NCBI GenBank assembly: GCA_015068495.1 | Contig: SVKL01000007.1 | Span: 1-64,000 of the forward strand | DNA: 64,000 nt | Direction of reading: 5' to 3' | DNA from: Oscillospiraceae bacterium | GTDB taxonomy: Bacteria; Bacillota; Clostridia; Oscillospirales; Oscillospiraceae | Shown here: in pieces, positions 38,929 through 56,142 of the stretch | How the letters are laid out: every line of letters begins with the position of its first letter | Position numbering within the stretch: the stretch's first letter is position 1 | The notes under the pieces: generated by a model | The model's input: the letters and a program-made list of their open reading frames with translations, nothing else | Told to the model about the DNA's origin: nothing | Databases searched by the model: none | Position numbers and translations under genes: made by a program

Positions 38929-40095
38929 CTATACAAGCGGGTAGTTGATGAAGAAGGGAACGGATGCCTCACCGCAGGCAATGCCCTCAAACTGCCATTG
39001 CAAAAGCAATTGATAGGTGCCTGCCGCAGGCATATTCTCTGTGCCTTGAAGGGAAACCTCCAGCCCCTCCGCGATTACTTTATCGGTAAAGCCATTTGGC
39101 ATTTCCACTTGCTCATAGGTAAGGGAGCCATCGTTATTCGTCAGCTGATAGACCTTCCAAGTGTAGTCACAGCCATTCCATTGCGCCGATAGCCGCCACG
39201 GTTGTTCCGGCGTCAGCAATGCGCTGGTCGGAAGATTCTCCCACGGGTCACTATCCACCACAGTCAAGCTGACCGTTTGCTGTTTATGGGTATCGTCGTT
39301 TTGCCGTTCCAGCAGAATCTCCAGCTCGCTTTGCGCCGTGATATCACAAAGGGAATAGTCCAATACCAGCAGCGTGGTTTCTGTCTCCTGCAGGGGCAGA
39401 TAGATTTTATTCCAATCGTGCAGTTGGGTATAGGTTTCGCCTTTATCCAGACTGTATCGCAAGCCCTGCAATGCAAGGTCTTGATTTTTGAAGGTAAGCA
39501 TATAGGTGTTTCTGTTTGTGCTGTTAAGCAGCAGATACGCCTTTCCGTTTTTCAGATAAACACCCTGTGTCTGCCGTTTGCAGATCTGATTCACATCAAC
39601 AGGCATTTTATCCGCATCCTGAGGGACCTCTACGCCCTGAGGAAGCAACCATAAGAAAAAGGTTGCAGAAGTATTGCCACAGGCAACCTGAATTTCCGCC
39701 TTTTGCGCGGTAAGCAGGATTTTGCCTGCATCCGTCAAGGACAGATTTAAGGTAACGGTCTGACCGTCCAGCGCAGCCGATGCTTGCACATAAGCCGTGC
39801 CGGTGGCTGTTACCGTTTGCGCCGCAGGCGCTTCCAAGCGGAAGGTATACTGTGCGCTCTGACGCTCCTGTATATTCCACGGCGCAAGCCACACTGCTTG
39901 CCCACCGGCTTGCAGGTAATCCTTGTTTTGTACCGGTTGCTGGGATTGCTCCTGCTCCGGGATATACACCTTGTCAATGCTGGCAGGCTGCAAATCCCTG
40001 CACTGGGTATCCCCAACAACCGTTGTCACGGACAGAAACAGCGCCGCTGCCAAACACCAAGGCAATATTCTTTTGCTCTTAAAGTTTCCAAGCAT
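38929..40095 (-). CDS. Exported protein of the SipW cluster, unknown function
   Basis: A 388-residue protein with an N-terminal signal segment (basic residues, hydrophobic 12-27, VVGDTQ) and otherwise beta-rich sequence. I recognise no catalytic motif. QTVTLNLSLTDAGKI and GTYQLLLQWQFEG suggest Ig-like sandwiches. It lies 29 bases upstream of the 1747-residue protein gene and 21 bases downstream of a small SipW-type protein gene, with its own RBS (AAGGAAGAG). It is probably a minor subunit or adaptor of the surface structure. Confidence is low for anything beyond export. Confidence 0.65.
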   Translation of the reverse strand: MLGNFKSKRILPWCLAAALFLSVTTVVGDTQCRDLQPASIDKVYIPEQEQSQQPVQNKDYLQAGGQAVWLAPWNIQERQSAQYTFRLEAPAAQTVTATGTAYVQASAALDGQTVTLNLSLTDAGKILLTAQKAEIQVACGNTSATFFLWLLPQGVEVPQDADKMPVDVNQICKRQTQGVYLKNGKAYLLLNSTNRNTYMLTFKNQDLALQGLRYSLDKGETYTQLHDWNKIYLPLQETETTLLVLDYSLCDITAQSELEILLERQNDDTHKQQTVSLTVVDSDPWENLPTSALLTPEQPWRLSAQWNGCDYTWKVYQLTNNDGSLTYEQVEMPNGFTDKVIAEGLEVSLQGTENMPAAGTYQLLLQWQFEGIACGEASVPFFINYPLV

Positions 40096-40116
40096 CTGCG
40101 CTCTTCCTTTCGTCGA

Positions 40117-40650
40117 TTATACGGTCTGCGCCTTCGTTGCAACCACCCGTAAAAGGCTGTGATAGTTAATCTCTCCACTGTGTTCCACCGTCAGATCAAA
40201 GCTTTGCTGACCGGAAGGCTGCAGTGTCCAGGTTTTTTCCTGTCCCTGAGCATCCGGAAACCGATACGCCCATCCGTCTCCAAAGCGCATATGCAGCACA
40301 CTTCCGGGCACAATGGGTTGCGCCTGCGCTGTATATTGCCCATCCGGAGCTGTCAGGGTTATATTTAGCTTTTCCGGCGCTTCAATACCTTCGGAAACCA
40401 GAATGTAGATTTCCCCTTCGGAAACCTGCGTACCGGTATTTTCCAAGGAAAATGTCAATTTTCGGGTGTTCTGCTCCGCAATCCAGTCGCCGTCCTGATG
40501 GAGAATCAAATTCTCTTCCCCTTCCGGCTGAAAGGGCAGTGTTTCGGTCCAATTCTCCCGAAATCTCGCCTGAGAAACCCCCACAGTCAGCACCAGCGCT
40601 CCAACTATACACAGCGCAACCAGCAGCGGAAACATATTTCTTTTATTCAT
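40117..40650 (-). CDS. Small SipW-type exported protein
   Basis: A 177-residue protein. The hydrophobic helix (about 7-24) ends GVSQARFRENW, resembling the A-x-F-S/R-D/E end of SipW-dependent signal peptides. The remaining 145 residues look like a single beta-sandwich (RKLTFSLENTGTQVSEGEIYI), the size of a TasA/CalY-type subunit though shorter. It has a strong RBS (AAGGAGG). It is encoded directly downstream of the beta-helix protein gene. Candidate minor pilin-like or capping subunit; inference only. Confidence 0.65.
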   Translation of the reverse strand: MNKRNMFPLLVALCIVGALVLTVGVSQARFRENWTETLPFQPEGEENLILHQDGDWIAEQNTRKLTFSLENTGTQVSEGEIYILVSEGIEAPEKLNITLTAPDGQYTAQAQPIVPGSVLHMRFGDGWAYRFPDAQGQEKTWTLQPSGQQSFDLTVEHSGEINYHSLLRVVATKAQTV

Positions 40651-40665
40651 TCCGCCGCCTCCTTT

Positions 40666-42564
40666 TTATGAATTCTGCTTCGTAACTGTCCAAGTTTGGC
40701 CACTTTCTGTGCAGGTATATCCATCTGCCACAAAGTCTGCCACATTGGAACTATATGCGCCGCCCTTAACCTGCACGGTAGCATTGGGCGCATTGGGCAG
40801 ATTCACACGGATTGCCAAATCCTTTTCGCTGTTAACAACTGTCTTTTCGCCCTCTACGGTCACGGACATAACCCATTCGTAGTTGGCCTCCAGATAGATC
40901 GCGGAACCAATATCCATAAACCCGCTCACATTAAAGCCGGGGGTCATATTGGTTGGGTTACCGTTGCCGGTGGCTGTGATGGACGTGTCGATGATATGTA
41001 CATCGCCACCCTTAACAACCACACCCATATCGCCTTCAAGGGTGCTGTTTACAATGGTCATCTTACTGTTTCTTTGGGGTTGATAGACGGCAGCTGCCCC
41101 ACCGGTAACAGTGGAGTCCATGATTTGAATGGACGTTCCCCAATATGTGCTGGTGCCGTTGCCCCAAATTGCGCCCAAATCACCGTGCAAAGTACTCTTT
41201 TCGATGGTGATCTGTGTCAGCTGGCCAGACTTCTCGCCATTGCCTCTGACATAAACAGCGCAGTCCGTCGCTGTAATGTTGCATTCAGAAAGGCGGACCA
41301 TAGAATCCTGTCCGGTTCCTGCGCTGTCCTCTACGCGGACAGCATCCACCATATCGCTCACGCTGACTTTATTCATAGTCAGTTCGCCGTTGACCACCTT
41401 TACACCCACGCTGTCGGCTGTATTGCAGCCTTGCAGTGTGCCGTCAAAAATCGTCAGCTTGCTGCCGTTTGCAACTTCAACAGCAGCCGTTTTGTCGGAT
41501 GTAAAAATCGTATGGCCGTTCAGATTCACCACAGCATCTTCACCGCTGGATAGATGCAAACTGGTGGCTTCTGCCAATGTCAGATCTGTCTCCAGCTGTA
41601 TTACGCCGCTGGTTAAATCGTTAAGCGCCTCCTGCAGCTGGGTCACCGTAGATACCTGCGTGCTATCAAATTCGCCGCCCTGCGCGCTGATATTCAAACG
41701 CACAATGCCTTGCTTTTTCTCCTCAGCGCTTCCCAGCGCCACATCCGTTTCCATTTCCTGCTGAATTTCTGCCCAATTGCACAAATACAGCCAAATGCCC
41801 TTACCCGTATCGTCTACGTCCACAGGATAATAGCCATTGACCGCCGCTGCAGGGTCAATCACCCCTGCATACCCATCGGTTGCGGACAAACTTGCTAAAA
41901 ACTGTGCCACCGTGGTTGTTCCGTCCACGGTTTTCAGCTTTCCGTCACTGTCAAAGGTGGCGCGGTCCAGGTCATACTCCACCGGACGCAAATACTCGTT
42001 CTCAGAGACTACCGTATTATTTACGGTGCCTAAGAAGTAATAGCCAAGCACATCATAAACCCACGTCCACTTAATACGGGCATCATTGTAAAACAGCTCA
42101 TTCAAAACAAGCTTGTTTTGGCTGGGAATCAAGTAGGTATAGCTATCCTTGGAATTCAAATATACCCGCTGCAGATTTTCCCCATTCTTGGTAGATGCGG
42201 CATCCACATACAGATAAATCCGTTTTGCCAAATCCTCGTCCATAGTCTTTGCGATATGCACACCTGCAAAGATCATATCCGAGCCGGTATTGTTCACTTC
42301 CAAGGAAATCACACCGGATTTTCCCGGGCCGGCTTCAATGGCGCCGTCACCGATGTCCACCGTACCCTCAAATCCCCACGCAGCAGTCTGGAAAATCAAA
42401 TCACCGGATTTTACCACATTGGTATACCAAGCTGCGGACATTGTGAACAGCAACACCAACAGCAGTGCAACCGTACTTACAGCGATGATTGACTGGGTTA
42501 TGATTTTCTTCCGGGCCGAAGTAAGCAATTTATTCTGTTTTTTCAGGACTTTCTCTTCCATCAT
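40666..42564 (-). CDS. SipW-type exported protein with beta-helix domain
   Basis: About 632 residues from the ATG at 42564 (AGGGTG upstream); a GTG at 42576 is the other option. The hydrophobic helix ends TMSAAWYTNVV, the Trp motif of the cluster. Residues 40-300 are beta-rich (GAIEAGPGKSGVISLEVNNTGSD, a TasA-like strand pair). Residues 310-620 look like a right-handed parallel beta-helix (repeated VxLNGHTI, LTIFDGTLQG, ITIEKSTLHG). It has no pectate-lyase catalytic residues that I can place. Its start lies within the 3' end of the SipW-like peptidase gene (35-base overlap), which suggests coupled translation with the enzyme that likely processes it. Probable adhesin. Confidence 0.75.
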   Translation of the reverse strand: MMEEKVLKKQNKLLTSARKKIITQSIIAVSTVALLLVLLFTMSAAWYTNVVKSGDLIFQTAAWGFEGTVDIGDGAIEAGPGKSGVISLEVNNTGSDMIFAGVHIAKTMDEDLAKRIYLYVDAASTKNGENLQRVYLNSKDSYTYLIPSQNKLVLNELFYNDARIKWTWVYDVLGYYFLGTVNNTVVSENEYLRPVEYDLDRATFDSDGKLKTVDGTTTVAQFLASLSATDGYAGVIDPAAAVNGYYPVDVDDTGKGIWLYLCNWAEIQQEMETDVALGSAEEKKQGIVRLNISAQGGEFDSTQVSTVTQLQEALNDLTSGVIQLETDLTLAEATSLHLSSGEDAVVNLNGHTIFTSDKTAAVEVANGSKLTIFDGTLQGCNTADSVGVKVVNGELTMNKVSVSDMVDAVRVEDSAGTGQDSMVRLSECNITATDCAVYVRGNGEKSGQLTQITIEKSTLHGDLGAIWGNGTSTYWGTSIQIMDSTVTGGAAAVYQPQRNSKMTIVNSTLEGDMGVVVKGGDVHIIDTSITATGNGNPTNMTPGFNVSGFMDIGSAIYLEANYEWVMSVTVEGEKTVVNSEKDLAIRVNLPNAPNATVQVKGGAYSSNVADFVADGYTCTESGQTWTVTKQNS

Positions 42565-43267
42565 TTTTTTGAACACCCTGCTTTATTTCTTCCAAACATT
42601 CCTGACGGATTCTTTCTTCCATTTCCGCGTACTCTTCCTGTGTCAACAGGCCGCCACCGGATATTCTTTCCTCTTTTTCCACCTCTTGGAGGACCACATC
42701 CATTTCTTTACGGATGTTCTGCACACAATTTTTCAGTATAAACCCGGCCACCAATAAAATAGGCACCAGTACACAGATTAAAAAGCCCACTTTATTGGTT
42801 AAAAAGCCCATGAGTGCCGCCATAAGGTTTCCCTCCTTTGTATGCCAAGCAACTTTACCAATCAGATTTTCCGACGTGACATAGTATCGATCCGCAATCA
42901 AATTGGCATCGCCTTGGGTTTCCAGTAGAATTGTTTCGTCCGCCTGCTTTGTTACAGACACCACGCGGTGGGTAATGATTTTTCCCTTGGTAGGCGGTTC
43001 TTTCGAAACAAAACATACAATATCTTCTTTTTCAATTTCAGAAATCGGCGTTTGTTGGCTCAGCAAAAGAGAACCAACAGGGATATTGGGTTCCATACTG
43101 CCGGTCACTACACGAAAAACGCTGAAGCCTGCAATCTTCACATATCCCTGTGTATAAACCTGGGCAACAATCAGCAGGCACAGCAAAACTGCCATCACAC
43201 AGGCCAAGGTTGCCAAGGAAGACCCGATTTTTTCTGAAATGCTGGGTTTTTTCTTTTCTTCGCTCAT
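42530..43267 (-). CDS. sipW: SipW-like signal peptidase I (first copy)
   Basis: A 245-residue ER-type signal peptidase. Membrane helix (about 18-38), then VVTGSMEP with the nucleophile Ser57, ITHRVV with His100 in place of the usual bacterial Lys, and TQGDAN with Asp120: the Ser-His-Asp pattern of SipW/archaeal enzymes. A second membrane helix (about 163-183) leads into a 60-residue charged, coiled-coil-like cytosolic tail. SipW enzymes process TasA/CalY-type matrix proteins. Four or more such candidates are encoded on both sides, which supports the assignment. RBS is modest (AAGG, 9 bases). Confidence 0.88.
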   Translation of the reverse strand: MSEEKKKPSISEKIGSSLATLACVMAVLLCLLIVAQVYTQGYVKIAGFSVFRVVTGSMEPNIPVGSLLLSQQTPISEIEKEDIVCFVSKEPPTKGKIITHRVVSVTKQADETILLETQGDANLIADRYYVTSENLIGKVAWHTKEGNLMAALMGFLTNKVGFLICVLVPILLVAGFILKNCVQNIRKEMDVVLQEVEKEERISGGGLLTQEEYAEMEERIRQECLEEIKQGVQKNDGRESPEKTE

Positions 43268-43296
43268 AATAAAACCTTACTTAACTGTTTTTGCTT

Positions 43297-44646
43297 TTAG
43301 CCGTGTCCGCCTGCAAGCTCCAAGCCAATGGCAAAGGGAACACTGTCAGCAAAACCGATGCAATCCGGATCCTGACCTTCCAGCCAGACGAACATCCGAA
43401 TGCGCTGGGGAACATTTTTCTCCAGCTCCACAATCATCACATCTTCTGTTGCTCCCGCCGTCCCCAAAGATTGGAGCTGTTCGGCAGAAAGCACCGATTC
43501 CTCCTGCCCATAGAGCATACCGGTATTGGGCAAAAACTGTCCCCGGGACAGGAATGTGGATGTCTGCTGTTGCAGATAGCGGAAATAAAAGTCCCGTTCC
43601 AATTCCTTCTCTTCCCCACTGCCAAGCGTCTTACCTGCAATGGAAGCTTGAAACAGCGGTTCCAGTGCCAGACCGTATTCATTGTTCAGCCAACTGTTGC
43701 GCAACTGCACCGTCAGTCTGTCCCGTACGGAAACAGGCTGGCCGTCCTTGCCAATAGGCTTGGTAAATGCATACTGCCCGTCAAGGATCTCATCGCCCAA
43801 GAGGGTAAATACCGTTTCCGGGTGCAAATCCCCGTTGGGCTCATAAATTGTAAATCTGTCCCCCGGCATATTATTGCAGGACATTCCGGGTTCTTCGTAG
43901 TATCCCCGCAAGGAGGAATATTGATTGGAATAATAGGTGCTTCTGGCATAGTACTGCATAGAATTATCCAGCACAGCGCCGGTGTTGGTTAAAAATCCGA
44001 TACGGGCGCTGGCCGCCACACTGTCGTTGCCATAGGTCAAGTGGTAACCGTCCTCGGTCTTTTCAACCCGGGGCAAGCCTAGAAGAAAGCTTCCTGTATG
44101 GGAGAAGCTGTCACCGGCGGAAATCCGCAGCTGATAGTCCCCTCCCGGAGAAACCACCCAAAAATCAAGGTACACATAGCTGCCTTCCCTTGCCTTTTCC
44201 TGTTGGGAAATCGGAAGATTTGCATAGGAAAGAACAATGTCCTTGATATGCGCTTCGGCAGGCTTGATTTGACCCATTACCGCATCTCCGGCAACAACCT
44301 CCGGATCCTTTGCGGCATAGTAGGTTGGGACAAACCAGTTTCTGCCATCTGCAGTAGATACGGGGCTTAAGCCCGCAAGATTCTGCAGATAGTCATAACT
44401 TTGCCATTGGCTGAAATTGATTTGCTCCTGAAACACACCGGGGTAATGGTATGTAACACCGTCCGCCTGCTCCGATATGTCCGGCGCAATCAAAATCGTA
44501 CCGCTGCCACCAATGGCAACATGAATTCCCTCTGCCACAGGATTGTTGGACAGGGTTAACCACGCATATGTGGACACAACGACCACAGAAAATGCCACCA
44601 GCACCGATATTAACGCAATTATTAACTTGGTGTATTTCTTGGTCAT
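43297..44646 (-). CDS. TasA-like SipW substrate with WLEGQD motif
   Basis: A 449-residue protein. Hydrophobic helix (about 8-24) ending VSTYAWLTLS, then beta-rich ectodomain starting EGIHVAIGGSGTILIA. Near the C-terminus (about 418-430) lies FVWLEGQDPDC, a motif shared with the proteins at 49046-50023 (VWLEGQDVDC) and 52372-53463 (LWVEGDDPHC). No transmembrane anchor at the end. Inferred to be an exported fibre or matrix subunit processed by the SipW-like peptidase encoded 29 bases downstream. Good RBS (AGAGGTG). Confidence 0.78.
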   Translation of the reverse strand: MTKKYTKLIIALISVLVAFSVVVVSTYAWLTLSNNPVAEGIHVAIGGSGTILIAPDISEQADGVTYHYPGVFQEQINFSQWQSYDYLQNLAGLSPVSTADGRNWFVPTYYAAKDPEVVAGDAVMGQIKPAEAHIKDIVLSYANLPISQQEKAREGSYVYLDFWVVSPGGDYQLRISAGDSFSHTGSFLLGLPRVEKTEDGYHLTYGNDSVAASARIGFLTNTGAVLDNSMQYYARSTYYSNQYSSLRGYYEEPGMSCNNMPGDRFTIYEPNGDLHPETVFTLLGDEILDGQYAFTKPIGKDGQPVSVRDRLTVQLRNSWLNNEYGLALEPLFQASIAGKTLGSGEEKELERDFYFRYLQQQTSTFLSRGQFLPNTGMLYGQEESVLSAEQLQSLGTAGATEDVMIVELEKNVPQRIRMFVWLEGQDPDCIGFADSVPFAIGLELAGGHG

Positions 44647-44658
44647 TGGACACCTCTA

Positions 44659-46527
44659 TTACTCTCCGGAAATACCGGCGCTTTGTTTTTTCGCCTGTCT
44701 TTTGCGCTCCTGCGCAAGCTTTGCCTGCCGCAAGCTGTCGCGGTAGGCTTTTCGTGCAGTCAGCTGTTTAGGCAGCTCGGCATCGAAGTAAACCAGCTCC
44801 AATGTGTAGTTCTGCAGTGCGAACAAATCCTTTTGCCGCTGCAGTTCTCTTTCGCGAGCTTCCTTCTCCTGCTGCTCTCTGAGGATGCGTGCCTCTTCTT
44901 CCAGACGGCGCTGACGCTCCTGCTCTATGCGGGCCAATTCCTCCTGACGGGCACGTTCCTGCGCCAAGAGCTCCTCCCGTTTTGCCTGCTCCCGCGCTTC
45001 TTTGCGACGAATCCGCTCTCTGCGCGCTTCTTCCTTTCTCCGGAGTTCTTCCTGCTCCATCAACGCAACGGCATCCAAATAGTCTTGCTGTTGCTTGATG
45101 GCACGGTTTTTCTCCTCCGCGCGCATAGCCAGCTGCTCCTCCAATTGCTTCTGGAAGTATTCCACTTCCCGACGCATCAAGCCGCCTCTGCGGCGATCCT
45201 CCAGTTCCCGCTCCATTCTCTGTTGCAGCAAACGGGCTTCTTCTGCCGCCTTTTCCTGACGTATTCTTTCTTTTTCTGCTTCTTTTTCCTTGCGGATACG
45301 CTCTTTTTCCGCCTCTTTCTCTTGGCGGAGGCGCTCTTTCTCTGCCTTTTTGCGCTGCTCCTGCTCCTCAACCAAACGGCGGCGTTCCGCCATTTCCTCT
45401 TGCATCAGCTGCTCCTTGGTCAATTCCTCAATCAGGACCTTGCGCACTTCAACATCGGGCAGGCTGTAATCTTCGGTCAGTTCCTCCACAATCTGGTGGA
45501 TGAATTTCGGTTTCAGCGAGCGGCGCTTTTCCTTTGCCGGCGCAGGCAAACGCCGGTCCTTTTCATCCTCAAGATATCCCTTCAGGATGATGTACTGGAA
45601 CAGAATGTTATGATAAATATCCCGCTGGAAACGTTCATCAATATGGGGATTCTGCTCCACGATACGAATGGTATATCCAATGTCGTCATAGCTGCGGAGG
45701 AAATCCCACAGCTTTGAGATGGCGCGATAATGGGCATTGCGCTTAATGATATTGGTTTTGACCACAGTGCCCTTAATCCGGGACAGCTTTTTCATTTGCT
45801 GGGCGAAGGGAGAATTCATAAAGATCGACAGCATTCGGTACAGCCGTGAAATGCGGTCAAAAATCTCTCTGTTTTTCTCGTCGGTATCCAGCGCGCTGTC
45901 CGTTTCCTTAACATGCAGGAACATATCCACGTGCACTGTTTCGGTGGGGCAGGACATATCCGACTCCACCTTCAGCTTTGCGCCGAACTCGTCACCCATC
46001 ACCTCAAAAAGCGCATCGTAACGAATTTTGACAAAATGGAATGAATGCTCCAGCACGGTGAATACCAACCGGTTTTCGTAAACCTCGTTGCTATCCTCCC
46101 GATAGCGTTGCATCACCCGGGAGGGGCGGACATTACCGGTGTCCTCATTATAGTCCTCCACCAGCGATGCGTGCTGAGCCAGATGCTGAATCACTTCTGT
46201 TCCGGTACGCTTGGCGTTGGCCACATTAACAATCACTTCCTCCTCCCGAATCACATTTCGGGGGTTGTTAATGATAGCCTGAAAGCTGCCCAGCGCTTCA
46301 TCTATAGCATCCACCCAGCGGGAATCCACCGTTTTCACCATTTTCCGGTTGGAAAACTGAAAACGGTTGTCTGCGTGGGCAATGGAATCCATAAAGAAAT
46401 CGTAAAACTCTGTGCTGGACAAGGTACGAATAATCGAGCGGGTATATTTCTGATAAATAGGGTCAATGACAGAGGGCGCTTGCTCCTGCGTCACCTTTGT
46501 CTTTTTCCCTTCTGTTTGGCTTGCCAT
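44659..46527 (-). CDS. DUF2357/McrC-like protein with long coiled coil
   Basis: A 622-residue cytosolic protein. The N-terminal 340 residues resemble the DUF2357/McrC N-terminal region, the best marker being NEVYENRLVFTVLEHSFHFV at about 148-167 (YENR is typical). Residues 375-570 form a highly charged Glu/Arg/Lys coiled coil with repeats such as AEKERIRKEKE. The last 45 residues are a short conserved-looking tail (YTLELVYFDAEL). I see no PD-(D/E)xK nuclease block, unlike true McrC. It is 22 bases downstream of the McrB-like ATPase gene and has a strong RBS (AAGGAGGTG), so the two are a gene pair. It may be a scaffold or regulator of the ATPase, linking it to the secreted-subunit genes. Function unknown. 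Confidence 0.65.
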   Translation of the reverse strand: MASQTEGKKTKVTQEQAPSVIDPIYQKYTRSIIRTLSSTEFYDFFMDSIAHADNRFQFSNRKMVKTVDSRWVDAIDEALGSFQAIINNPRNVIREEEVIVNVANAKRTGTEVIQHLAQHASLVEDYNEDTGNVRPSRVMQRYREDSNEVYENRLVFTVLEHSFHFVKIRYDALFEVMGDEFGAKLKVESDMSCPTETVHVDMFLHVKETDSALDTDEKNREIFDRISRLYRMLSIFMNSPFAQQMKKLSRIKGTVVKTNIIKRNAHYRAISKLWDFLRSYDDIGYTIRIVEQNPHIDERFQRDIYHNILFQYIILKGYLEDEKDRRLPAPAKEKRRSLKPKFIHQIVEELTEDYSLPDVEVRKVLIEELTKEQLMQEEMAERRRLVEEQEQRKKAEKERLRQEKEAEKERIRKEKEAEKERIRQEKAAEEARLLQQRMERELEDRRRGGLMRREVEYFQKQLEEQLAMRAEEKNRAIKQQQDYLDAVALMEQEELRRKEEARRERIRRKEAREQAKREELLAQERARQEELARIEQERQRRLEEEARILREQQEKEARERELQRQKDLFALQNYTLELVYFDAELPKQLTARKAYRDSLRQAKLAQERKRQAKKQSAGISGE

Positions 46528-46549
46528 ATCGCACCTCCTTCACACGGTT

Positions 46550-48183: not shown

Positions 48184-48975
48184 TTATCCGTTTGCAGCGT
48201 CCTCTTGCTGGGCTTCCTGGGTTTCCTTGGCCATATCTGCCATCAGCTCTGCCCGCAAACGCTCCCGCAGCTCTGCCTCAATGGCTGCACGTTCTTGTTG
48301 CTTTTTCTCTTCCTCTTCGGCATTCTCCTGCTGAGCGCCGCGCTCTTCTTCATAGCGGATACGGTTCTTCACATTCTGGTACTCAAACAGCACCCGGAAG
48401 AACTGAATCAGATGATACAGGAAGAACAGGAATACCGGCACCACAATCACCAGCAGGAAGCCGGTGCTGGTCTGCAGATAATCGAACACCTTGCCCAAGC
48501 CGGGAATCCGGAACATATACTTGCCCACCACCTCAGACTCGTGGACGGTAATGGGGTCAACAGAGGTATTGTTATCACCCTTGGTGCGGAAGTAGATGTG
48601 TTCGCCGCCGTCATAAATCTCGTGGATGGTGTGGGTATTGAGCACACGCTCGCCGTTGATGACGGTCCAGTAGGTGATGATATCGCCCTTTCTCAAGGCA
48701 TCGGGGTCCTTCACTGTTCTGGCAACCGTCAGATCGCCGGGCAACAGCGTGGGATACATGGAGTCCGTCTGCACGGAGAAGAACGCCGTACCCAAAATGT
48801 TGGGCACACCGTTGCCGGATGCAGAGACAAAGGACACATAGGTGCAAAGCGCCGCCAAAACAATTGCAATCACCAGTACTACATTGATTACAATGTTGGC
48901 AATTTTGCGTCCCTTGTTTTCAGGTGCCTCTGTTTCCTGATTTTTCTCAACGGGGATTTGTTTTTCCTTCTTCAT
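48184..48975 (-). CDS. sipW: SipW-like signal peptidase I (second copy)
   Basis: About 263 residues from the ATG at 48975, chosen over 49014 because GGAGAGGAG lies 8 bases upstream. Membrane helix (about 25-48), TDSMYPT with Ser72, NTHTIHEI with His115, TKGDNN with Asp134: the ER/SipW triad again. A second helix (about 160-182) leads to an 80-residue Glu/Gln/Arg-rich coiled-coil tail. It is only distantly similar to the first copy, so the two may serve different substrates. It lies between the TasA-like gene at 49046 and the McrB-like ATPase gene. The cytosolic coiled coil could dock on the coiled-coil partner at 44659-46527 (inference). Confidence 0.88.
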   Translation of the reverse strand: MKKEKQIPVEKNQETEAPENKGRKIANIVINVVLVIAIVLAALCTYVSFVSASGNGVPNILGTAFFSVQTDSMYPTLLPGDLTVARTVKDPDALRKGDIITYWTVINGERVLNTHTIHEIYDGGEHIYFRTKGDNNTSVDPITVHESEVVGKYMFRIPGLGKVFDYLQTSTGFLLVIVVPVFLFFLYHLIQFFRVLFEYQNVKNRIRYEEERGAQQENAEEEEKKQQERAAIEAELRERLRAELMADMAKETQEAQQEDAANG

Positions 48976-49045
48976 GTGAATTCTCCTCTCCTTTTTATAA
49001 GGAATGTGATTCAAAAAGTATTTTTTAACAGCAACGCGCTGAAAA

Positions 49046-50023
49046 TTACTCGATAGGCTGCAGTCCCGGGGACTGTCCGATTTCGCCGATAAACTGAATA
49101 TTTGCTAAAATCTCCGCCGCTTTACCGATGCGGTTGTTGCAATCCACATCCTGACCTTCCAGCCACACATACACTTCTACACGCAGCATAGCGTCTTGCG
49201 CCATAGAAAACAGCTTCGGGGATGTGGAAAAATCTCCCATAGTCCATACCACGTGGTCCCGCAGTACCGGATCCGATTCCACCCAAGTGGCAGTATCCTG
49301 CAAGAAGATTCTGTCCTGTTCAATCAAGTGGTCCGTGCCGTCAATGCTGGGTGTAGGGACGTAACCGGTGGTGCCGTCTATATGGGTATTGGCGTTGGGC
49401 TCAATGATGACAAATTTTCTCTCGCCCTCTGCCTCCGAGCCATCGGCATTCACAGGGGTGAAGCGAAGGCCCAGACGAATGGCGTTTTCTGCGCCGTAGC
49501 CGCCATTGTAATGCTGAATTTTCTCCGCATCCCATATTGGCTTACCTACCGCAAAGGTGCCGGAAGCGCCGTCCTCTGCCGCAATCGCCGGCGCGAAGGA
49601 AACCTCCATATCTACATCAGAGCGCATATAGAAAACGCCTTTGACATAGTAGCCGTAAACGTCGTCGCGGTTACTGTTATTTTCGTCGCTTAAGGGCTGC
49701 CAGTGAGATGTGAGCCGGCCGTCCAAGCCGTAGTTTGCGGCATAGAAGCGCTGCTCTGCTTCCGACCAAGTGACCGGCCGCAGGGGCGGTGTCTCATCTA
49801 TCAACTGGTCGAACTTAAGCTGTACGCCCCACGTGTCCGTGGGAGATTGGGCGATTTCCAAGCCGGCCTGACTGGTCACATACAGGCTCAGGTCATTTAC
49901 CTTTGGGGTTTGGTTGATGGAAAACCAAGTATATGTGGCCACCACCAGTAACGGCAGGACGCCCAAAAGCAGCACGTAATAGGTTATGATTCGCAGGGGT
50001 GATTTTTTTCTTTTCTTTTCCAT
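49046..50023 (-). CDS. TasA-like SipW substrate with WLEGQD motif
   Basis: About 325 residues from the ATG at 50023 (GGAGG 7 bases upstream; the longer in-frame start at 50158 has no such site). Hydrophobic helix (about 9-28) ending VATYTWFSINQTP, then a beta-rich ectodomain. The C-terminal part holds VYVWLEGQDVDC. It shares layout with the proteins at 43297 and 52372. No terminal anchor. It has the length of a TasA/CalY-type subunit, and sits 70 bases upstream of the second SipW-like gene, its probable processing enzyme. Confidence 0.78.
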   Translation of the reverse strand: MEKKRKKSPLRIITYYVLLLGVLPLLVVATYTWFSINQTPKVNDLSLYVTSQAGLEIAQSPTDTWGVQLKFDQLIDETPPLRPVTWSEAEQRFYAANYGLDGRLTSHWQPLSDENNSNRDDVYGYYVKGVFYMRSDVDMEVSFAPAIAAEDGASGTFAVGKPIWDAEKIQHYNGGYGAENAIRLGLRFTPVNADGSEAEGERKFVIIEPNANTHIDGTTGYVPTPSIDGTDHLIEQDRIFLQDTATWVESDPVLRDHVVWTMGDFSTSPKLFSMAQDAMLRVEVYVWLEGQDVDCNNRIGKAAEILANIQFIGEIGQSPGLQPIE

Positions 50024-50079
50024 AGCATCCTCCAAAAACGAGGCAAACGGGACGATTGGGTCAGCGAATGCAGGGAACA

Positions 50080-50228
50080 GATTCGTAAAACCCACGCTTG
50101 GGTTGCACGAATCTATTTCCTGTTGGGGAAATAGCCGCAAGTTCGTACAGTGCTGCACCCACTCCCCGTGCAGACACTGTACTATTTACTTGCTTTCTCC
50201 GTGTCCCGGGCCTAGGCCCGGGACACGG
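50080..50228 (-). promoter_or_regulatory. Three hairpins between two SipW-substrate genes
   Basis: In the 244-base gap: GATTCG/CGAATC with inner ACCCA/TGGGT (50080-50113), CTATTTCC/GGAAATAG (50113-50134), and a 30-bp perfect palindrome (50199-50228; half-site CCGTGTCCCGGGCCT). No T-run follows the palindrome on the minus strand, so it is more likely an mRNA-stabilising or processing structure that raises expression of the upstream 658-residue subunit relative to downstream genes. Confidence 0.55.
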
Positions 50229-50267
50229 GCGCGAATAAAGAATAAATTAGCCTGCAGCTACGTTTTA

Positions 50268-52244
50268 TTACGGATTGTTTCCACCGGGCAAGTGCAGGTC
50301 GGAGTATTCCATAGGCTTCAGCTCAGCGCTGGAAGCGAACTGCAGATTCATATCACCGGTCAGAGACTGTGCGACGGTAGCCACATCTGCGTTCTCAACA
50401 TATTCGCCATCCAGATAGACCAATACAGACATCTCTGTCTTGGTGCTCTGGGGCAGTTCAATCAGCTTATCCTTTTCTTCACCGGTCTTATCTGCACCGA
50501 TGGTCAGCTTATAGCCGTTGTTGCCGTCAGCAGTGAAGGTGGTTTCTACCATCTTCATTGTAGCCTTCCAGCCGTTGGCATTTTCTTGTGCATTGTCGGT
50601 GTCCAGAACGGCAACGCCGTAGATAGCAGCACCGTCGGTATCGTTAGAGGTGGTCTCCATAAACACAATGCGGATAGCACCCATAATGTCCTTGGCCTGT
50701 TCCTTGGTGTAACCCAATGTAGCAATGTCGAACTCCATGTAGCTTCCGCCGCCTCTTGTCTCGGCATCTGTTGCATTGTCATCGTAAATACGGTCTGCCG
50801 CTTCAGTCTGCAGCTTCAGATAAGAGCCCGCTGCATTTGTGCGGAATGCCAAATCGATTTTGTAGCCGTATACGTCTGTCAAAGCAGAGGAAGCTGCTTC
50901 ATTCTCCTTTGCACTGAAAGCGTTCATCGCAGTAGTGAAAGTAGTATTATATTGCGGTGTTACCGTGGGTTCTGCGGTCATAGCAGCAGGAAGGTCCTTA
51001 AGCTTTATACCCTTTACGGACAGCTCACCCAGCTTAAAGGAAGCGGTGAAGGTGCCAGTAAAAGCAGCAATCTCGCTGTAAACGCCGCCAGTGGTGGTCA
51101 GTTCCAGACCGCCAGCAGCGAGGATATCGGAAGCCAGATTGCTAACTGCATCTTCATCGTTAGTGTCAATATCCGTAATGGGGGTGTCATTCAGAACCAT
51201 GGTATCAACATTAACCAGATTTACCATGTGGGCGCTAATGGTATTCCATGCAACAGTAGTAGCGTCAGGCGCTAATCCGGACAAAGCGTTCCCCAAACCT
51301 GTCTGGGTTGCAGTCAAGGTATCCTTCAGTGTGCTCAGCTTAGCATAAGCTGCTGTAAAAGCTGCATCTGCAGACAAGGCCGAATCCAGGGCGCTCGCCA
51401 AGGATGCCAAATCGGTATTGTTTGCAATGACATTCAAGGCAGTTGCGCCATCAGGCAAAGCCGAAGGATTGGTTGCCTCGATATTCAAAACCATAGCCTG
51501 CAAATAGTTGTAAAGTGCAGTCTCCAGTTTACCCTCTGCAGTCAAGAGTGTATTAACCGTATCCAAAACGGCCTGTACATCGTCCTTTGCAACCTCGGTT
51601 TGACCGTCCATCTTGACAGAAACAGCCATTGCGGTCAGTTTCGGACCGGTGGTGTTCAGAGAAGTGGCTGATCCAACCATCGCAGCAGAGATATTGTTTG
51701 CGAAATCAATCTTTGCTTGACGCAGCGCCAACTGTTCATCAGACAGACCGGAAGCGTTACCAATGGCCATAACGCCGTTGCCTGTGCCGCTCCAGTTATT
51801 GTTTGTAACATTCCATGCTCTGGACAGGCTCTCTGTTACCAGACTGTCTACACGGCCGTCAGGACCGTAAGAGGGCGTGGACAGATGGGATGCGCCAATC
51901 TCTGTGCCGTTCCAGTTCAGGCGGGCAGGCATAAGGGCGATCTTATTCAGGCCATATGCCTCGTTACTCAAATCCACAAGGTTGCCCCAAGTAACGTTTC
52001 TTTCCAGATCGGACTTGATAGCATCGCCAACACTGGATGTGATGGTGCCACCATTGTTCAGGGCCATTTCCAAGTTACCGTTTGCGCCGACAGAGGTCTG
52101 AATGCCGGTAACTTCAGGTGCAGTAGACAATGTAAACCATGCGTAGGATGAGGAGACTACCATAATGGCAGAGACCATCAACATAGCAATAGCTGCCATC
52201 AGCTTCTGGCGAATTGCCTGCTGCTTCTTCTTTGCTTTGTTCAT
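50268..52244 (-). CDS. Major TasA-like SipW substrate (fibre subunit candidate)
   Basis: About 658 residues from the ATG at 52244, with AAAGGA 9 bases upstream; starts at 52253 and 52352 fit less well. Hydrophobic helix (about 13-31) ending SSSYAWFTLS, then APEVTGIQTSVGANGNLEMAL. The long ectodomain is rich in Ala, Thr, Asn and Asp, with VYLDGEYVENADVATVAQSL and QFASSAELKPM near the end, both shared with the 1747-residue protein. No charged anchor. Flanked by a leader on one side and a 30-bp palindrome on the other, the arrangement expected for an abundant product. Inferred main matrix or fibre protein; the SipW cleavage site would lie just before the Trp motif or within it. Confidence 0.8.
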   Translation of the reverse strand: MNKAKKKQQAIRQKLMAAIAMLMVSAIMVVSSSYAWFTLSTAPEVTGIQTSVGANGNLEMALNNGGTITSSVGDAIKSDLERNVTWGNLVDLSNEAYGLNKIALMPARLNWNGTEIGASHLSTPSYGPDGRVDSLVTESLSRAWNVTNNNWSGTGNGVMAIGNASGLSDEQLALRQAKIDFANNISAAMVGSATSLNTTGPKLTAMAVSVKMDGQTEVAKDDVQAVLDTVNTLLTAEGKLETALYNYLQAMVLNIEATNPSALPDGATALNVIANNTDLASLASALDSALSADAAFTAAYAKLSTLKDTLTATQTGLGNALSGLAPDATTVAWNTISAHMVNLVNVDTMVLNDTPITDIDTNDEDAVSNLASDILAAGGLELTTTGGVYSEIAAFTGTFTASFKLGELSVKGIKLKDLPAAMTAEPTVTPQYNTTFTTAMNAFSAKENEAASSALTDVYGYKIDLAFRTNAAGSYLKLQTEAADRIYDDNATDAETRGGGSYMEFDIATLGYTKEQAKDIMGAIRIVFMETTSNDTDGAAIYGVAVLDTDNAQENANGWKATMKMVETTFTADGNNGYKLTIGADKTGEEKDKLIELPQSTKTEMSVLVYLDGEYVENADVATVAQSLTGDMNLQFASSAELKPMEYSDLHLPGGNNP

Positions 52245-52371
52245 TGTACTCATTCCTTTCATAATATACAATGTATGTTTTTTTACCTCCCTGTGGGAGG
52301 AATGTAAACTGCTTGACCGGTTTGGAGTGATTTTCCGGTCTTGCAGGAACATTTAATAAAATATGTAGGAA

Positions 52372-53463
52372 TCAATCATTCCAAAAATCCAAACCGTCCC
52401 ACCAGCGGGAGGTTTCGTCCTTACCCTTGCTTTCGTCCACCAAGCGGAACTGCATACTCAGACCCACGTGACCGCCAATCAGCTCGTCGGTACAGTGGGG
52501 GTCATCCCCCTCGACCCACAAAACCACTGTGTACTTGTGGATTTCTTGAGGCGCTACTGTTTCCTGCTGTCCGGACGCAACCAGTGTTTCGGACAAAAAC
52601 GGCACAGGCCGCAAGCGGTAGTAGGTAAAATCTTCCCTCTCCGCAATGACAGAATACTGTTGCTCGGGATTTTTTGCCATATCTATAAAGGGCGCTTTCC
52701 GATAGCCTACAGTATTGTTCCCCTCCGCAGGCAATGCTTGGGGAGCTCCCTGCTCGTCTGCTTTGGCATAGAAGGTCATTTCTTCATCCTCGAAGACCAT
52801 AACCCACAGAGCATCTGCCAATTTTTTATCCTCGGAATCAATGTTCAGATCCCACACATAGCCCGTTTCGGATTCGCCTTCGTTGCGGATGTAGAAGGTG
52901 TAATAAAAGCATCCGGCATCTCTGTATTTCTGCGTTGTGTCCTGCTGGTCGTTGGAAACAGGATTTTCCCAGACGGAATTGTCATAAATCTTATCCGGAA
53001 TCTGCACAACAGAAATACACGGCACATCCACTGCAGGCTGGGAAAACAGGTTGCCGGTCGCTGCGCGGAAGGTGATCTCCTCGCTGAGAGAATAACCCTC
53101 GCGGAACATACCTTGGCTGAGGTTAATGGTGAACAAGCCACGCATTTGGGTTACCATTGAAAATATGGTCAGCACCAGCGCCAGCAGACCCAAGGCGCCA
53201 AGCAGGGCCCATAATCCCCGCCCGGAGAAAAACCAGAGAAAGCCAAACCTTGGTCTGTCAAAATACAGACCCAAACTGGATGCGGTGAGCTCAAACTCTT
53301 TTCTGCTTTTGATGCCACGCTCACGCATTTCCCGGCGCAATTTTTTGCGCCCTTCTCTGATTTCCTGCACCTGCTCACGGGTGAGCCTTTGACCGCCCCG
53401 TTTTTTCAAGGTGAGCCCATCAGTGTTTCTCACTTTCGGTGGGTTTTTTTCTTTATTATCCAT
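52372..53463 (-). CDS. Membrane protein with WVEGDD motif, SipW cluster
   Basis: A 363-residue protein with an unusually long basic cytosolic N-terminus (1-80, many Lys/Arg) ahead of one membrane helix (about 84-107) and a beta-rich ectodomain. TVVLWVEGDDPHC near residue 325 is the motif found in the TasA-like proteins at 43297 and 49046. The 80-residue cytosolic part distinguishes it from the other substrates and may make it a membrane-retained base or anchor of the structure. Its start overlaps the stop of the HD-GYP/EAL-like gene by 8 bases, suggesting coupled translation and perhaps a signalling link through the cytosolic part. Confidence 0.72.
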   Translation of the reverse strand: MDNKEKNPPKVRNTDGLTLKKRGGQRLTREQVQEIREGRKKLRREMRERGIKSRKEFELTASSLGLYFDRPRFGFLWFFSGRGLWALLGALGLLALVLTIFSMVTQMRGLFTINLSQGMFREGYSLSEEITFRAATGNLFSQPAVDVPCISVVQIPDKIYDNSVWENPVSNDQQDTTQKYRDAGCFYYTFYIRNEGESETGYVWDLNIDSEDKKLADALWVMVFEDEEMTFYAKADEQGAPQALPAEGNNTVGYRKAPFIDMAKNPEQQYSVIAEREDFTYYRLRPVPFLSETLVASGQQETVAPQEIHKYTVVLWVEGDDPHCTDELIGGHVGLSMQFRLVDESKGKDETSRWWDGLDFWND

Positions 53464-54925
53464 TTTGCTGTTCTCTCATCAGGCTGTCACGAATCAACTC
53501 ATCCTCGCTGACTTGACTGCCGGTTATTGTACCGCTGGAAGCCGCTACCCCGCAGGCCTGCAGCCACGCAAGGATATCGTGGGTATCGGCGTCGCCGCCC
53601 CAAAGGGTAAAGCCTTCCGTACGAAGCTGATTCATTGCATTTGCCGTCTCCTGCTTCAGGTAAAGCTCCGGCGCAAAGCGCAAATCACGGAAGCCCAGCT
53701 CCTTGATTTTCTCCACGGGAAGCTCTTCGGGATTGTAGCCGTCCAGCAGCAGGCGGATACCGTTTCGCAGATAGCGCTCCAGCACCTCCTGCGTGCCCTT
53801 ATTGGCATCCCGAACCAAAGCGGCAGGAACGGTAAACAACAGCTTTTCCTTTTGGATTTCCTGATCGGCGAACATCTGATTCAACCGTTTCAGCTGACTT
53901 CCCTGCAGGAAAAAGTCGGGAATCATACGCAGCACAACGCCGCCCAAATTCAGCTTGCAGTTTTCCATACGCACCACCGCGTCGGCGGCCTCGTATGCAA
54001 AATACATAGCCACATCCGTCACCAAATCCGTACGGCGCAGCATTGCTGCAATATCCTGCACGCCCTCCGTTTCCCCCGGTTGGTTGGCAATTCCCCCAAA
54101 CCAAGGCGTTGCCTCATAGCAGGCGACCTTATCCTTCCGCTCCGCCACCATAGGCCGATAGTTCAGACCCAAAGGACGGTCCGGTCTTTTGATTACCAGA
54201 GGAATGGTCTGGGGCAGGGTCATAGTATAATGGATATATTTTTGGTAGACCCCATAGGTGCCTTCTTTTGCCGCTTCCAGTACATCTATGATTGCCGGGT
54301 CCCAAGCTGTTCCCGCTTGGGCTTTCATTGCGGCATAAGCATCTTCAAAGGGTGTTTCGGATTGTGTCTCGGAGCACAGTCTGTCCAGCTCTTTGGCAAG
54401 TCCCACAATGTGGGCAATGGGGCTGATTTGGTTTCCCCGTCTGCCCTCGGGATAGCCGCTGCCGTCCCAACGCTCCATATGCTGCTGACAGGTTTCCCGC
54501 TGCATCAGCCAAGGAATGTTTTTGGTGGGCTGTTCAATCAGGCTGCCCTTTCGCTTTTCTTTCGCCCGGACACTGCGCATCTGCAATGTGGCTACCAAGG
54601 CGCGGCCGTCAGTGGTGTACTTGCGGTACACCGCCTTCTCTTCCTCCGTAAAATCAGACTGGAAAATCTGATACTCCGGCGGAACCAGCGCTTTGCCCAG
54701 CTGGTGATACATACCGCACTTATAGGCCAGATCCGCATATTTTCCGGTCATTCTTTCCTCGCCCTCTGCGCTGTCCCGGCCATAGCCCAGTGCGCATGCC
54801 TGAACAAACAATTCCCGGGTATACGCCGCTATGCGGACGGATTGCTGCCGAATGACAGGTGCTAATCCCCGAAACGCATCGTCCCAAGTGTCATATTCCA
54901 TTCTTTTCCAATCTTGTTCATTCAT
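53456..54925 (-). CDS. Degenerate HD-GYP plus EAL-like protein
   Basis: A 489-residue cytosolic protein. Residues about 20-215 resemble HD-GYP: MYHQLGKALVP replaces the HDIGK block (metal Asp lost), and QHMERWDGSGYPEG keeps DGSGYP but has Met for the second His of HHE. Residues about 235-470 resemble an EAL domain: NYRPMVAERKDKVACYEATPW at the EAL position (Thr for Leu), LLLDGYNP where DDFGTG is expected, and SSGTITG near the end. Both catalytic sites look dead, so it more likely binds c-di-GMP or a partner than cleaves it. It is encoded between the FIVAR membrane protein and the long-tailed membrane subunit, overlapping the latter by 8 bases. Likely a regulator of matrix production (inference). 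Confidence 0.75.
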   Translation of the reverse strand: MNEQDWKRMEYDTWDDAFRGLAPVIRQQSVRIAAYTRELFVQACALGYGRDSAEGEERMTGKYADLAYKCGMYHQLGKALVPPEYQIFQSDFTEEEKAVYRKYTTDGRALVATLQMRSVRAKEKRKGSLIEQPTKNIPWLMQRETCQQHMERWDGSGYPEGRRGNQISPIAHIVGLAKELDRLCSETQSETPFEDAYAAMKAQAGTAWDPAIIDVLEAAKEGTYGVYQKYIHYTMTLPQTIPLVIKRPDRPLGLNYRPMVAERKDKVACYEATPWFGGIANQPGETEGVQDIAAMLRRTDLVTDVAMYFAYEAADAVVRMENCKLNLGGVVLRMIPDFFLQGSQLKRLNQMFADQEIQKEKLLFTVPAALVRDANKGTQEVLERYLRNGIRLLLDGYNPEELPVEKIKELGFRDLRFAPELYLKQETANAMNQLRTEGFTLWGGDADTHDILAWLQACGVAASSGTITGSQVSEDELIRDSLMREQQNG

Positions 54926-54975
54926 GGCGCATCATCCTTTCCCTCCGGAATTTTTCCTCTTTTGATACGGAGGTC

Positions 54976-56142
54976 TTATTCGTCATCGTCCTCGATATCA
55001 TACTCCACCAAAGGCGTCGTATCCTTTCGATTCTTTATCTTAGCAAAAATATACGTTCCAATAAGCACACCGCAGGCAATGTTCAGCGCCAAGCTGACCC
55101 AGAACAGCACCGGCCAAACCTTATGGCTGGGGTAATCGCAGCGCTGCTCAACCACATCCGGAATTGTAGGCTTGGGGAGCGTTTCTGTGGGAACATCGTC
55201 TTTCTGCGCCAAATGCCGCTGAACAGCGGAAATTGCATCCACCAATCTCTGCGCTGCCGCATCCACTTGCGCCTGATCTGCGCTGCTTAACAGGTTTGTT
55301 GCATCGGTCAGGGCGTTGTCCAGCTCTGCCCACAACGCGCCGGCTTCAACATCTGCCAGCAAAGCATTTGCTGCGTCAATCGCACCGGTTAATGTCATAT
55401 AATCCATTTTCACCAATGCGCCAATGGCATCCTTCAGCCCTGCGGCCGCCTGATCAATCTTCTTTTGGCTGCCGGACTTGCGTGCGCTGTAAGCGGTTGT
55501 CAGCGCCGACTTCAGACTCTCCCAAGAAGTTGCCGTGTATTTATCCTGCTCCAAGCCCTCTGCAACCGCAATTTGATTGTTCAGCTCATCCAACTCCAGC
55601 GGAACCGTAGGCGCCGTCGGGGTGGTTGCGGACGGGGTTGTGGGCTGGGTCGCGGGAGGGGTTGTGGGTTGGGGCGTAGTAGGCGTCGTGGGTGCAGGCG
55701 TATTCTGCTTGATGGAAATCTGGTAAACCAGAGGCGCGGGGGTTTTGGTTACAATTGCATCGCCCTCGCTGACCGATGTCTTATAGCTCACAGTTACTGT
55801 GCAGGAATCGCCGGGGCTGCCGGCAGTTTTCACCAAAATATGGAACACCGCCGAAGGCACCACGCTGCTGGCTGTATAGTAGGGGTGATTGTTTGTGCAG
55901 TCACCGCCCAGTGCACGGGGCAAATCCGTGTCATCAAAGCTTAGGGACGCAATCATACTTTCGTTGGAGAACGAGATGGAATCCACCTCAAAACCCCATA
56001 TGTTTGCCAGCGGCACATCCAGTGTTACCACCGCGCCGGAATCAACAGAGAACTCCGCTGCGGCATCGGCGCTAAGGGGCATCATACACAGGAAAAGCGC
56101 CAATGCAATGGAGCATACCAGAGCTTTTTTCATAAATTTCAT
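54976..56142 (-). CDS. FIVAR membrane protein with possible cohesin-like domain
   Basis: A 388-residue surface protein. Signal peptide (1-27, ADAAAEF), a beta-sandwich (about 28-145) with GAVVTLDVPLANIWGFEVDSISF that recalls cohesins or carbohydrate-binding folds, a Thr/Pro-rich linker (about 150-180), two FIVAR-like helical repeats (about 183-312; ATSWESLKSALTTAYSA), one membrane helix (about 338-364) and an acidic tail. It is encoded 30 bases downstream of the 2012-residue dockerin protein. By analogy with the dockerin-cohesin pairs at 3.9-9.1 kb, it is a candidate anchor for that dockerin. The cohesin similarity is faint and needs a profile search. Confidence 0.7.
   Translation of the reverse strand: MKFMKKALVCSIALALFLCMMPLSADAAAEFSVDSGAVVTLDVPLANIWGFEVDSISFSNESMIASLSFDDTDLPRALGGDCTNNHPYYTASSVVPSAVFHILVKTAGSPGDSCTVTVSYKTSVSEGDAIVTKTPAPLVYQISIKQNTPAPTTPTTPQPTTPPATQPTTPSATTPTAPTVPLELDELNNQIAVAEGLEQDKYTATSWESLKSALTTAYSARKSGSQKKIDQAAAGLKDAIGALVKMDYMTLTGAIDAANALLADVEAGALWAELDNALTDATNLLSSADQAQVDAAAQRLVDAISAVQRHLAQKDDVPTETLPKPTIPDVVEQRCDYPSHKVWPVLFWVSLALNIACGVLIGTYIFAKIKNRKDTTPLVEYDIEDDDE

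Follow-up and report, generated by a model that had tools for sequence, protein, structure and literature searches.

Why does a relative of the restriction nucleoside triphosphatase (NTPase) McrB sit among signal peptidases and exported proteins? The question is raised by the first 64,000 nucleotides of contig SVKL01000007.1 (hereafter the window; our contig C20), from an Oscillospiraceae bacterium whose draft genome, GCA_015068495.1, holds 1.77 Mb in 40 contigs. Between about 62.2 kb and 31 kb, large genes follow one another on the minus strand. Among them are two signal peptidases of the SipW type, exported proteins with a SipW-type N-terminus (five clear cases and a doubtful sixth), a McrB-like NTPase, a DUF2357 protein and a dead HD/EAL protein. 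We propose that this locus may be a SipW-dependent surface-filament export system run by a restriction-derived NTPase under the control of cyclic di-GMP (c-di-GMP), a reading based on comparative sequence analysis on which our own judgement is evenly divided. The near-constant neighbourhood of NTPase and SipW genes, together with the frequent dead c-di-GMP-enzyme domains, suggests such a restriction-derived filament device. What can be read directly from the genomes is the gene content, order and strand, the domain homologies, the retention of NTPase and SipW motifs, the loss of EAL motifs, a gene fusion and a difference in SipW tails. The core genes, in their order along the minus strand, are as follows.

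53456 to 54925, minus strand: HD/EAL-like protein, both domains catalytically degenerate; PF13487 (HD_5) 3.5e-15, PF00563 (EAL) 5.4e-6.
52372 to 53463, minus strand: single-pass membrane protein, transmembrane (TM) segment at residue 86, C-terminal WxEGxD motif; homologues in 73/96 loci.
48184 to 49014, minus strand: SipW1 signal peptidase, above the TIGR02228 cut-off, with a 71-residue charged C-terminal tail; likely start 48975.
46550 to 48148, minus strand: membrane-anchored McrB-like NTPase with a TM segment, a coiled coil and an AAA+ domain carrying an NxD motif.
44659 to 46527, minus strand: DUF2357 (McrC N-terminal-like) protein with a C-terminal coiled coil; PF09823 in the first 385 residues.
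42530 to 43267, minus strand: SipW2 signal peptidase, above the TIGR02228 cut-off, with a 65-residue charged tail.

The identity of these genes is the first matter to settle. A first-pass annotation, made from the sequence alone, had recognised two SipW-like signal peptidases, a membrane-anchored McrB-like ATPase and a DUF2357-like coiled-coil protein, and all three identifications hold. SipW1 and SipW2 score 90.2 and 82.2 bits against TIGR02228, for which the curated cut-off is 51.85, and both keep the Ser-Met, His and Asp positions, which do not vary among 13 aligned homologues. Matches to the Bacillus SipW equivalog NF046067 (106.9 and 77.7 bits, respectively) lie below its cut-off of 190. 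Ser and His are the active-site residues of SipW-type (endoplasmic-reticulum-type) signal peptidases, and a regular expression finds Ser in 120/121 and His in 117/121 of the SipWs linked to the NTPase.

A single TM segment at residue 55 of the NTPase is followed by a coiled-coil-like region (assigned by eye) and then by a McrB-type AAA+ domain, with matches to PRK11331 McrB (3.5e-5) and, by profile, to the solved McrB structure 6hz4 (4.3e-6). At least one TM segment lies within 260 residues ahead of Walker A in all 94 scored NTPases. The window protein carries an NxD rather than an NxxD motif (GTINNDDST). Walker A and NxD are each kept in 95 of the 96 loci, the exceptions being L027 for Walker A and the unlinked L132 for NxD, and a YDRA stretch does not vary across an alignment of seven homologues. 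A regular expression for Walker B proved too strict (77/96, with the motif visible in several of the misses), and its count is not used. The kept motifs bear on whether the McrB/McrC-like pair might simply hold the SipWs at the membrane as a static platform, doing little NTP-driven work. Staphylococcus PcdA, a McrB-family protein co-opted for division-plane selection (PMC10602043), provides a precedent for such a scaffold, and the TM segment and coiled coil of the CoCoPALM loci named by Bell et al. (2024) have been called FtsB-like (PMC11090510). Unlike in PcdA, however, the Walker A and NxD motifs are almost always intact here and the YDRA stretch does not vary, and we consider a mere scaffold improbable.

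The partner protein matches DUF2357 (PF09823) over its first 385 residues at 29.3 bits, above the cut-off of 23.3, and 41/41 aligned members match PF09823 at E 1 or better (best 3.1e-15). At full length the window protein has no Pfam match at E 1, perhaps because of its C-terminal coiled coil, which was assigned by eye. By family and fold it is likened to the N-terminal region of McrC, while a sequence search of solved structures with it found no McrC. A PD-(D/E)xK nuclease was not found in the full-length protein among Pfam families at E 1 or better. Further, complete DUF2357 proteins of about 350-380 codons occur among the relatives, and these consequently have no space for a nuclease.

Is the association between these genes a property of the locus or of a family? 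At least 565 relatives of the NTPase exist, and the counts that follow rest on the best 80 of these; two loci (L118 and L022) are seemingly one, and this set of 80 overlaps with a second set of 16. A DUF2357 gene follows the NTPase in 77/80, and in the three exceptions the contig ends within 214 b. SipW is present in 78/80, with L041 and L052 lacking any. It lies within 2 kb upstream in 64/80 and within 4 kb past DUF2357 in 49/80; among loci with sufficient room, the upstream SipW is absent from 13/74 and the SipW after DUF2357 from 15/55. In six other loci from four families, SipW, NTPase, DUF2357 and SipW stand in this order on one strand without exception (6/6). One locus, L067 (1362-5900), places a SipW between the NTPase and DUF2357 genes, the sole such order among the best 80.

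An even sample of the class (291 genomes, NTPase threshold E 1e-40) yielded 15 genomes with the NTPase and 18 matches including our own, and 13 of the 17 others are SipW-linked. The four unlinked matches (two in L131, one in L132 and one in L133, whose contig stops downstream of its NTPase) score lowest, at 375-476 bits versus at least 535 for linked ones. Membrane-anchored McrB-type NTPases without SipW do therefore exist and are more distant, and those of L131 and L132 have a DUF2357-like neighbour. In L131 (genome G252, 8031-12555) the DUF2357-like gene lies between two McrB-like NTPases with predicted TM segments; no SipW is found in 20 kb, and the module adjoins apparent ribosomal protein genes, making it a related module in another setting. 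Genome G200 holds two NTPase loci (L126 and L128) and eleven TIGR02228 matches. Across the sample, TIGR02228 scores above its cut-off in 13/15 genomes with the NTPase versus 60/276 without it (Fisher p 4e-7). Among 398 genomes of the phylum, the non-own matches listed all score 130 bits or less and fall short of the N-terminal membrane part.

Farther out, 29 more distant McrB loci, all of the NxD type and viewed with flanks of 1.5 kb only, have no SipW within that distance (0/29). In a tree of 46 representatives, thinned from 111 sequences, the SipW-linked NTPases all fall on one side of a branch with support 83/78; the SipW-less L041 and L052 are absent from this tree, and L133 forms a long, misplaced branch. 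The neighbourhood of the NTPase/DUF2357 pair, which the first-pass annotation had singled out as the feature to examine, is thus conserved, and homologues of the pair occur mostly with SipW rather than without it. The length of the same-strand run does invite the thought that the pair merely happens to sit in a long surface-protein operon. However, linkage is maintained at 41-50% identity across families, SipW is absent beside the 29 other McrB-type loci, and seven loci carry a gene fusion, so that we regard hitch-hiking as very improbable indeed.

These seven fusions are the most direct sign of physical coupling. Each joins DUF2357, a long coiled coil and SipW in a single open frame of 973-1029 codons, and all seven keep the SipW Ser-Met and His. 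Their carriers are Ruminococcus albus KH2T6, R. flavefaciens YRD2003 and UBA2946, three others labelled Ruminococcus and one Oscillospiraceae, and the fused SipW is the counterpart of the SipW2 position. In two Ruminococcus species, the fusion is followed by a small single-TM protein (L049, 14581-15036; L078, 15264-15740) and then by a protein of 74-76 residues.

The unfused SipWs also differ from their relatives elsewhere. For comparison, 20 SipW loci without the NTPase were hand-picked among the stronger TIGR02228 matches, genomes G058 and G249 being among those left out. SipWs of NTPase loci have long, charged tails, cytosolic by predicted topology, with a median of 65 residues (121 proteins, 84% with 35 or more), versus a median of 20.5 residues in the comparison loci (24 proteins, 8% with 35 or more); the Mann-Whitney p of 9e-8 is from a statistic that ignores kinship. 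A tree of 119 representatives splits the SipWs almost cleanly into upstream, downstream and unlinked ones, with 4 label changes versus a shuffled mean of 50.7, and SipW1 of the window is placed among the upstream SipWs. No group is a clean clade, and six rows are misplaced: the downstream SipW of L067 among the upstream ones, and four upstream and one downstream SipW among the unlinked. These trees suggest that SipW lineages are largely module-specific, and that upstream and downstream SipWs represent largely distinct lineages. Together, the fusions, the tail difference and the nearly separate SipW lineages make, in our view, a good comparative case for a single machine formed by the SipWs and the McrBC-like pair.

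Such coupling must be weighed against a defensive role, in which the locus would be a CoCoNuT-like anti-phage system tethered to the membrane, with the surface genes as passengers or effectors. The NTPase shares its NxD motif with the McrB branch that includes the CoCoNuT members, predicted RNA-targeting defence systems (PMC11090510), and it matches the PADLOC candidate defence family PDC-M26A at 1.2e-46, while the DUF2357 protein has no PADLOC match at E 1. Its presence is patchy, in 7/60 relative genomes (our own included) and 4/37 genomes of the genus. Another genome of the window's genus (G030, locus L020) carries an NTPase from a different subclade, and horizontal transfer of the module is therefore suggested. 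Against this stand the nuclease domain that was not found and for which the shorter DUF2357 proteins have no room, the fusion of DUF2357 to SipWs with their active-site residues kept, the largely module-specific SipW lineages, and the EAL, HD or PilZ genes at the locus. Defence thus seems to us quite improbable, and since the NTPase is SipW-linked, the PDC-M26A family may be partly mislabelled.

What might regulate such a machine? EAL, DDFG and HD are catalytic motifs of the EAL and HD-GYP phosphodiesterases. The first-pass annotation called the product of 53456-54925 a dead HD-GYP/EAL protein, and rightly so: its HD reads HQ and its EAL and DDFG motifs are gone, with the EAL domain, at 26.4 bits, below the cut-off of 31.3. 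The next gene encodes the single-pass membrane protein, with a basic N-terminal part of about 85 residues, the TM segment, and an ectodomain bearing the C-terminal WxEGxD motif of the exported proteins. We propose that it could be an anchor or base subunit; its homologues usually lie within a few kb of the NTPase, on the upstream side.

The gene just before the membrane protein was obtained from 60/70 forward-strand loci, the duplicate L118 was dropped and the window added, giving the window and 59 loci. At Pfam E 0.1, which is not the curated cut-off, 38/60 of these genes match EAL, 23/60 HD_5 and 1/60 PilZ. Sorted by type, 39 are EAL-type, 8 HD-only and 1 PilZ (48/60 in all), the other 12 being exported proteins or SipW. 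By regular expression, the EAL and DDFG motifs occur in 0/39 EAL-type proteins (that of L024 is incomplete), and an ExTE-like motif in 4. HD has become HQ in nine close relatives as well as in the window protein, and is kept in L034, L086 and 7/8 HD-only relatives; the part of the window protein that small Ruminococcus EAL genes match is its EAL half. Profiles of these EAL, HD and PilZ genes find matches in 43/80 of the best-match loci, many of which end early upstream, and in 9/13 linked class-sample loci versus 1/20 SipW loci without the NTPase, 0/3 loci with the NTPase but no SipW, and 0/29 of the short McrB-type loci. EAL, HD-GYP and PilZ are all c-di-GMP-related domains, and their recurrence at one shared position therefore suggests a c-di-GMP input to the module.

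The remaining genes from 33656 to 56142 are the following.

54976 to 56142, minus strand: FIVAR-like exported, C-terminally anchored protein (PF07554 1.7e-4, below cut-off), the first gene of the range 38929 to 56142 marked by the first-pass annotation; homologues in 10/96 loci.
50268 to 52352, minus strand: exported protein, SipW-type N-terminus SSYAWFT; likely start near 52244.
49046 to 50158, minus strand: exported protein, SipW-type N-terminus ATYTWFS, WLEGxDxxC motif, predicted beta-sandwich; likely start near 50023.
43297 to 44646, minus strand: exported protein, SipW-type N-terminus STYAWLT; C-terminal motif also present.
40666 to 42576, minus strand: exported protein, SipW-type N-terminus SAAWYT (by eye); pectate-lyase-like adhesive PF20585 at 0.0055, below cut-off; homologues in 12/96 loci.
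40117 to 40650, minus strand: small exported protein, SipW-type N-terminus doubtful; homologues in 10/96 loci.
38929 to 40095, minus strand: exported protein, no Pfam family at E 1; homologues in 4/96 loci.
33656 to 38905, minus strand: exported protein of 1749 residues whose SipW-type N-terminus, SATFAWVV, was assigned by eye; it continues the gene run beyond that range; homologues in 16/96 loci.

Short gaps and overlaps between the genes, which had been taken to point to co-expression, are borne out: 13 of 15 intergenic gaps are 106 b or less, including overlaps of 8 b and 35 b (starts trimmed by eye). The two wider gaps, 127 b before 50268 and 244 b before 49046, could house promoters. Promoter-like sites (11 versus 18.2 in shuffles) and terminator-like sites (27 versus 19.9) were uninformative.

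At least six SipW-type N-termini had been claimed. By eye five are clear (33656, 40666, 43297, 49046 and 50268), while the sixth (40117) is doubtful; a strict regular expression finds three in the locus. Our N- and C-terminal motif expressions are self-made, and the former has some false matches, one of them an NTPase. In the loci of the 80 relatives, the N-terminal motif occurs in 130/879 operon-strand open reading frames versus 2/150 on the opposite strand, and elsewhere on the window's own contig in 1/38; the C-terminal motif, of the WxEGxD type, occurs in 121/879 on the operon strand. The further suggestion that the locus is TasA-like does not hold at the level of sequence family. PF12389 (TasA/CalY) has no match in the draft genome and none among the exported proteins scanned, and an NCBIfam scan of the exported proteins returned no SipW-cognate signal model. 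Comparing an exported protein with solved structures by sequence gave nothing useful, nor did Foldseek by itself yield a match at E 0.001. The modelled protein is predicted to be a beta-sandwich; the TasA fibre is among the solved folds closest to it, with a modest Z, and the top fold neighbours of this model are filament subunits.

The modest fold match leaves room for a membrane quality-control role, in which the McrB/McrC-like machine would extract or clear SipW substrates, signal-peptide remnants or stalled precursors, and the exported proteins would form an adhesin or cellulosome-like array rather than a filament. AAA+ proteins often remodel membrane proteins, and the same gene run contains dockerin, leucine-rich repeat and weakly pectate-lyase-like proteins. 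However, homologues of the dockerin and leucine-rich repeat proteins occur at only 4/96 and 7/96 loci (many of which end early on that side), exported families with a common C-terminal motif recur, and the closest folds are those of filament subunits. On balance we think quality control unlikely, though it deserves serious attention.

Several neighbouring genes are of interest in their own right. The dockerin-bearing protein (56173-62226, 2017 residues, PF00404 1.6e-7) has a 2023-residue relative with 38% identity at 64508-70579 of the contig, and a cohesin-bearing protein (PF00963 1.1e-8) is encoded on the same contig at 5964-9149 of the window. A prolipoprotein diacylglyceryl transferase-like gene (32782-33549, PF01790 4.1e-17) closes the run, with homologues at only 2/96 loci. 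At 21278-22903, a histidyl-tRNA synthetase-like part and HisG share one frame, resembling a HisZ-HisG fusion.

Returning to the proposed filament system, we speculate that it would work as follows. Pre-subunits with SipW-type signal anchors would be exported and cleaved by SipW1 and SipW2, and the freed beta-sandwich subunits would then join up on the cell surface, probably through donor-strand complementation of the kind seen in TasA fibres. In the cytosol, the membrane-tethered McrB-like AAA+ protein would form a ring, stimulated by its nuclease-less, McrC-like DUF2357 partner. This pair would be coupled to the SipWs covalently in the seven relatives with fusions, and otherwise through the long charged tails and coiled coils. 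The dead EAL/HD (or PilZ) protein would supply a c-di-GMP-type signal, relayed with the single-pass membrane protein bearing the subunit-like motif, and NTP turnover would gate subunit cleavage or release at the growing filament base. The ring, the docking, the binding of c-di-GMP, the gating and the formation of a filament are all steps that we infer. The first-pass annotation had likewise envisaged a matrix or filament biogenesis system equipped with a cytosolic module for energy and signalling. That view is partly supported: the linkage, the fusions and an HD/EAL gene that proves part of the pattern speak for it, and the likeness of the exported proteins to TasA/CalY comes down to a modest resemblance in fold.

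We know of no NTPase for TasA-type filaments. With the fusions, the tails and the recurrence of a dead EAL/HD/PilZ gene, what was a loose association becomes a machine open to testing. If the proposal is correct, signal-peptide cleavage becomes a regulated step, and a phage-restriction motor has been co-opted to a surface or division role by a second route besides PcdA, in abundant but little-studied gut bacteria. In the gut and rumen Clostridia examined, the gene neighbourhood suggests that a restriction machine has been converted into a regulated surface-filament builder. More tentatively, and with more doubt than conviction, we raise the possibility of a whole class of filament systems in gut and rumen Clostridia, in which a c-di-GMP-controlled, McrBC-derived NTPase would drive SipW mechanically or allosterically and make signal-peptide cleavage the energised, gated step of donor-strand assembly.

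How does such a system compare with those already known? LapD and FimX are degenerate EAL receptors that govern surface adhesion or pili; the degenerate EAL domain is alike, while the partners differ and the hosts of LapD and FimX are Gram-negative. With McrBC the locus shares the DUF2357 activator family and fold, and may share activation itself. Unlike in McrBC, the NTPase here is membrane-anchored, with a TM segment and coiled coil replacing the DNA-reading domain, and its partner has a coiled coil where the nuclease would be. PcdA is likewise a McrB-family NTPase turned to a new cellular role, but, as far as the consulted part of PMC10602043 describes it, it has degenerate NTPase motifs and EVE domains, and lacks a McrC partner. 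Donor-strand assembly of Sulfolobus threads is said to be spontaneous or aided by unknown machinery (PMC9715654); their subunit, Saci_0406, is archaeal and shows 7% identity.

The tapA-sipW-tasA operon of Bacillus subtilis and sipW-bsaA of Clostridium perfringens place a dedicated SipW beside a filament-forming exported substrate (PMC9674648, PMC7395162), and the SipWs of our locus similarly adjoin their exported proteins. The sections consulted of those two papers describe no McrB/DUF2357 pair, and, unlike in these operons, the exported proteins here lie outside PF12389 and the SipW tails are long.

The closest match is CoCoPALM, to which Bell et al. devote one paragraph, naming the association of NTPase, McrC and signal peptidase, with no mechanism described there, and proposing a tie to pilus assembly (PMC11090510). 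That association is therefore already described, contrary to the first-pass annotation. The locus has every testable CoCoPALM feature (an NxD McrB-like GTPase with an N-terminal TM segment and coiled coil, a coiled-coil McrC homologue, and linked signal peptidase genes; PMC11090510). The core pairing is consequently not new, and the locus is a member of a named, mechanistically open class. The main text of PMC11090510 contains no TasA, camelysin, SipW, c-di-GMP, EAL domain, HD-GYP or PilZ, uses 'signal peptid' once, and does not mention fusion there. In the literature searched, mostly at the level of PMC with few subscription papers, we found nothing on PDC-M26 and nothing relevant joining SipW with McrB or Ruminococcus, and for signal peptidase with McrC, as for CoCoPALM itself, the CoCoNuT paper (in two versions) alone looks relevant. 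As far as that literature goes, what this locus and its relatives add to CoCoPALM is the DUF2357-SipW fusion, the SipW tails and lineages, the recurring dead EAL/HD/PilZ gene, and a lead on the fold of the exported subunits.

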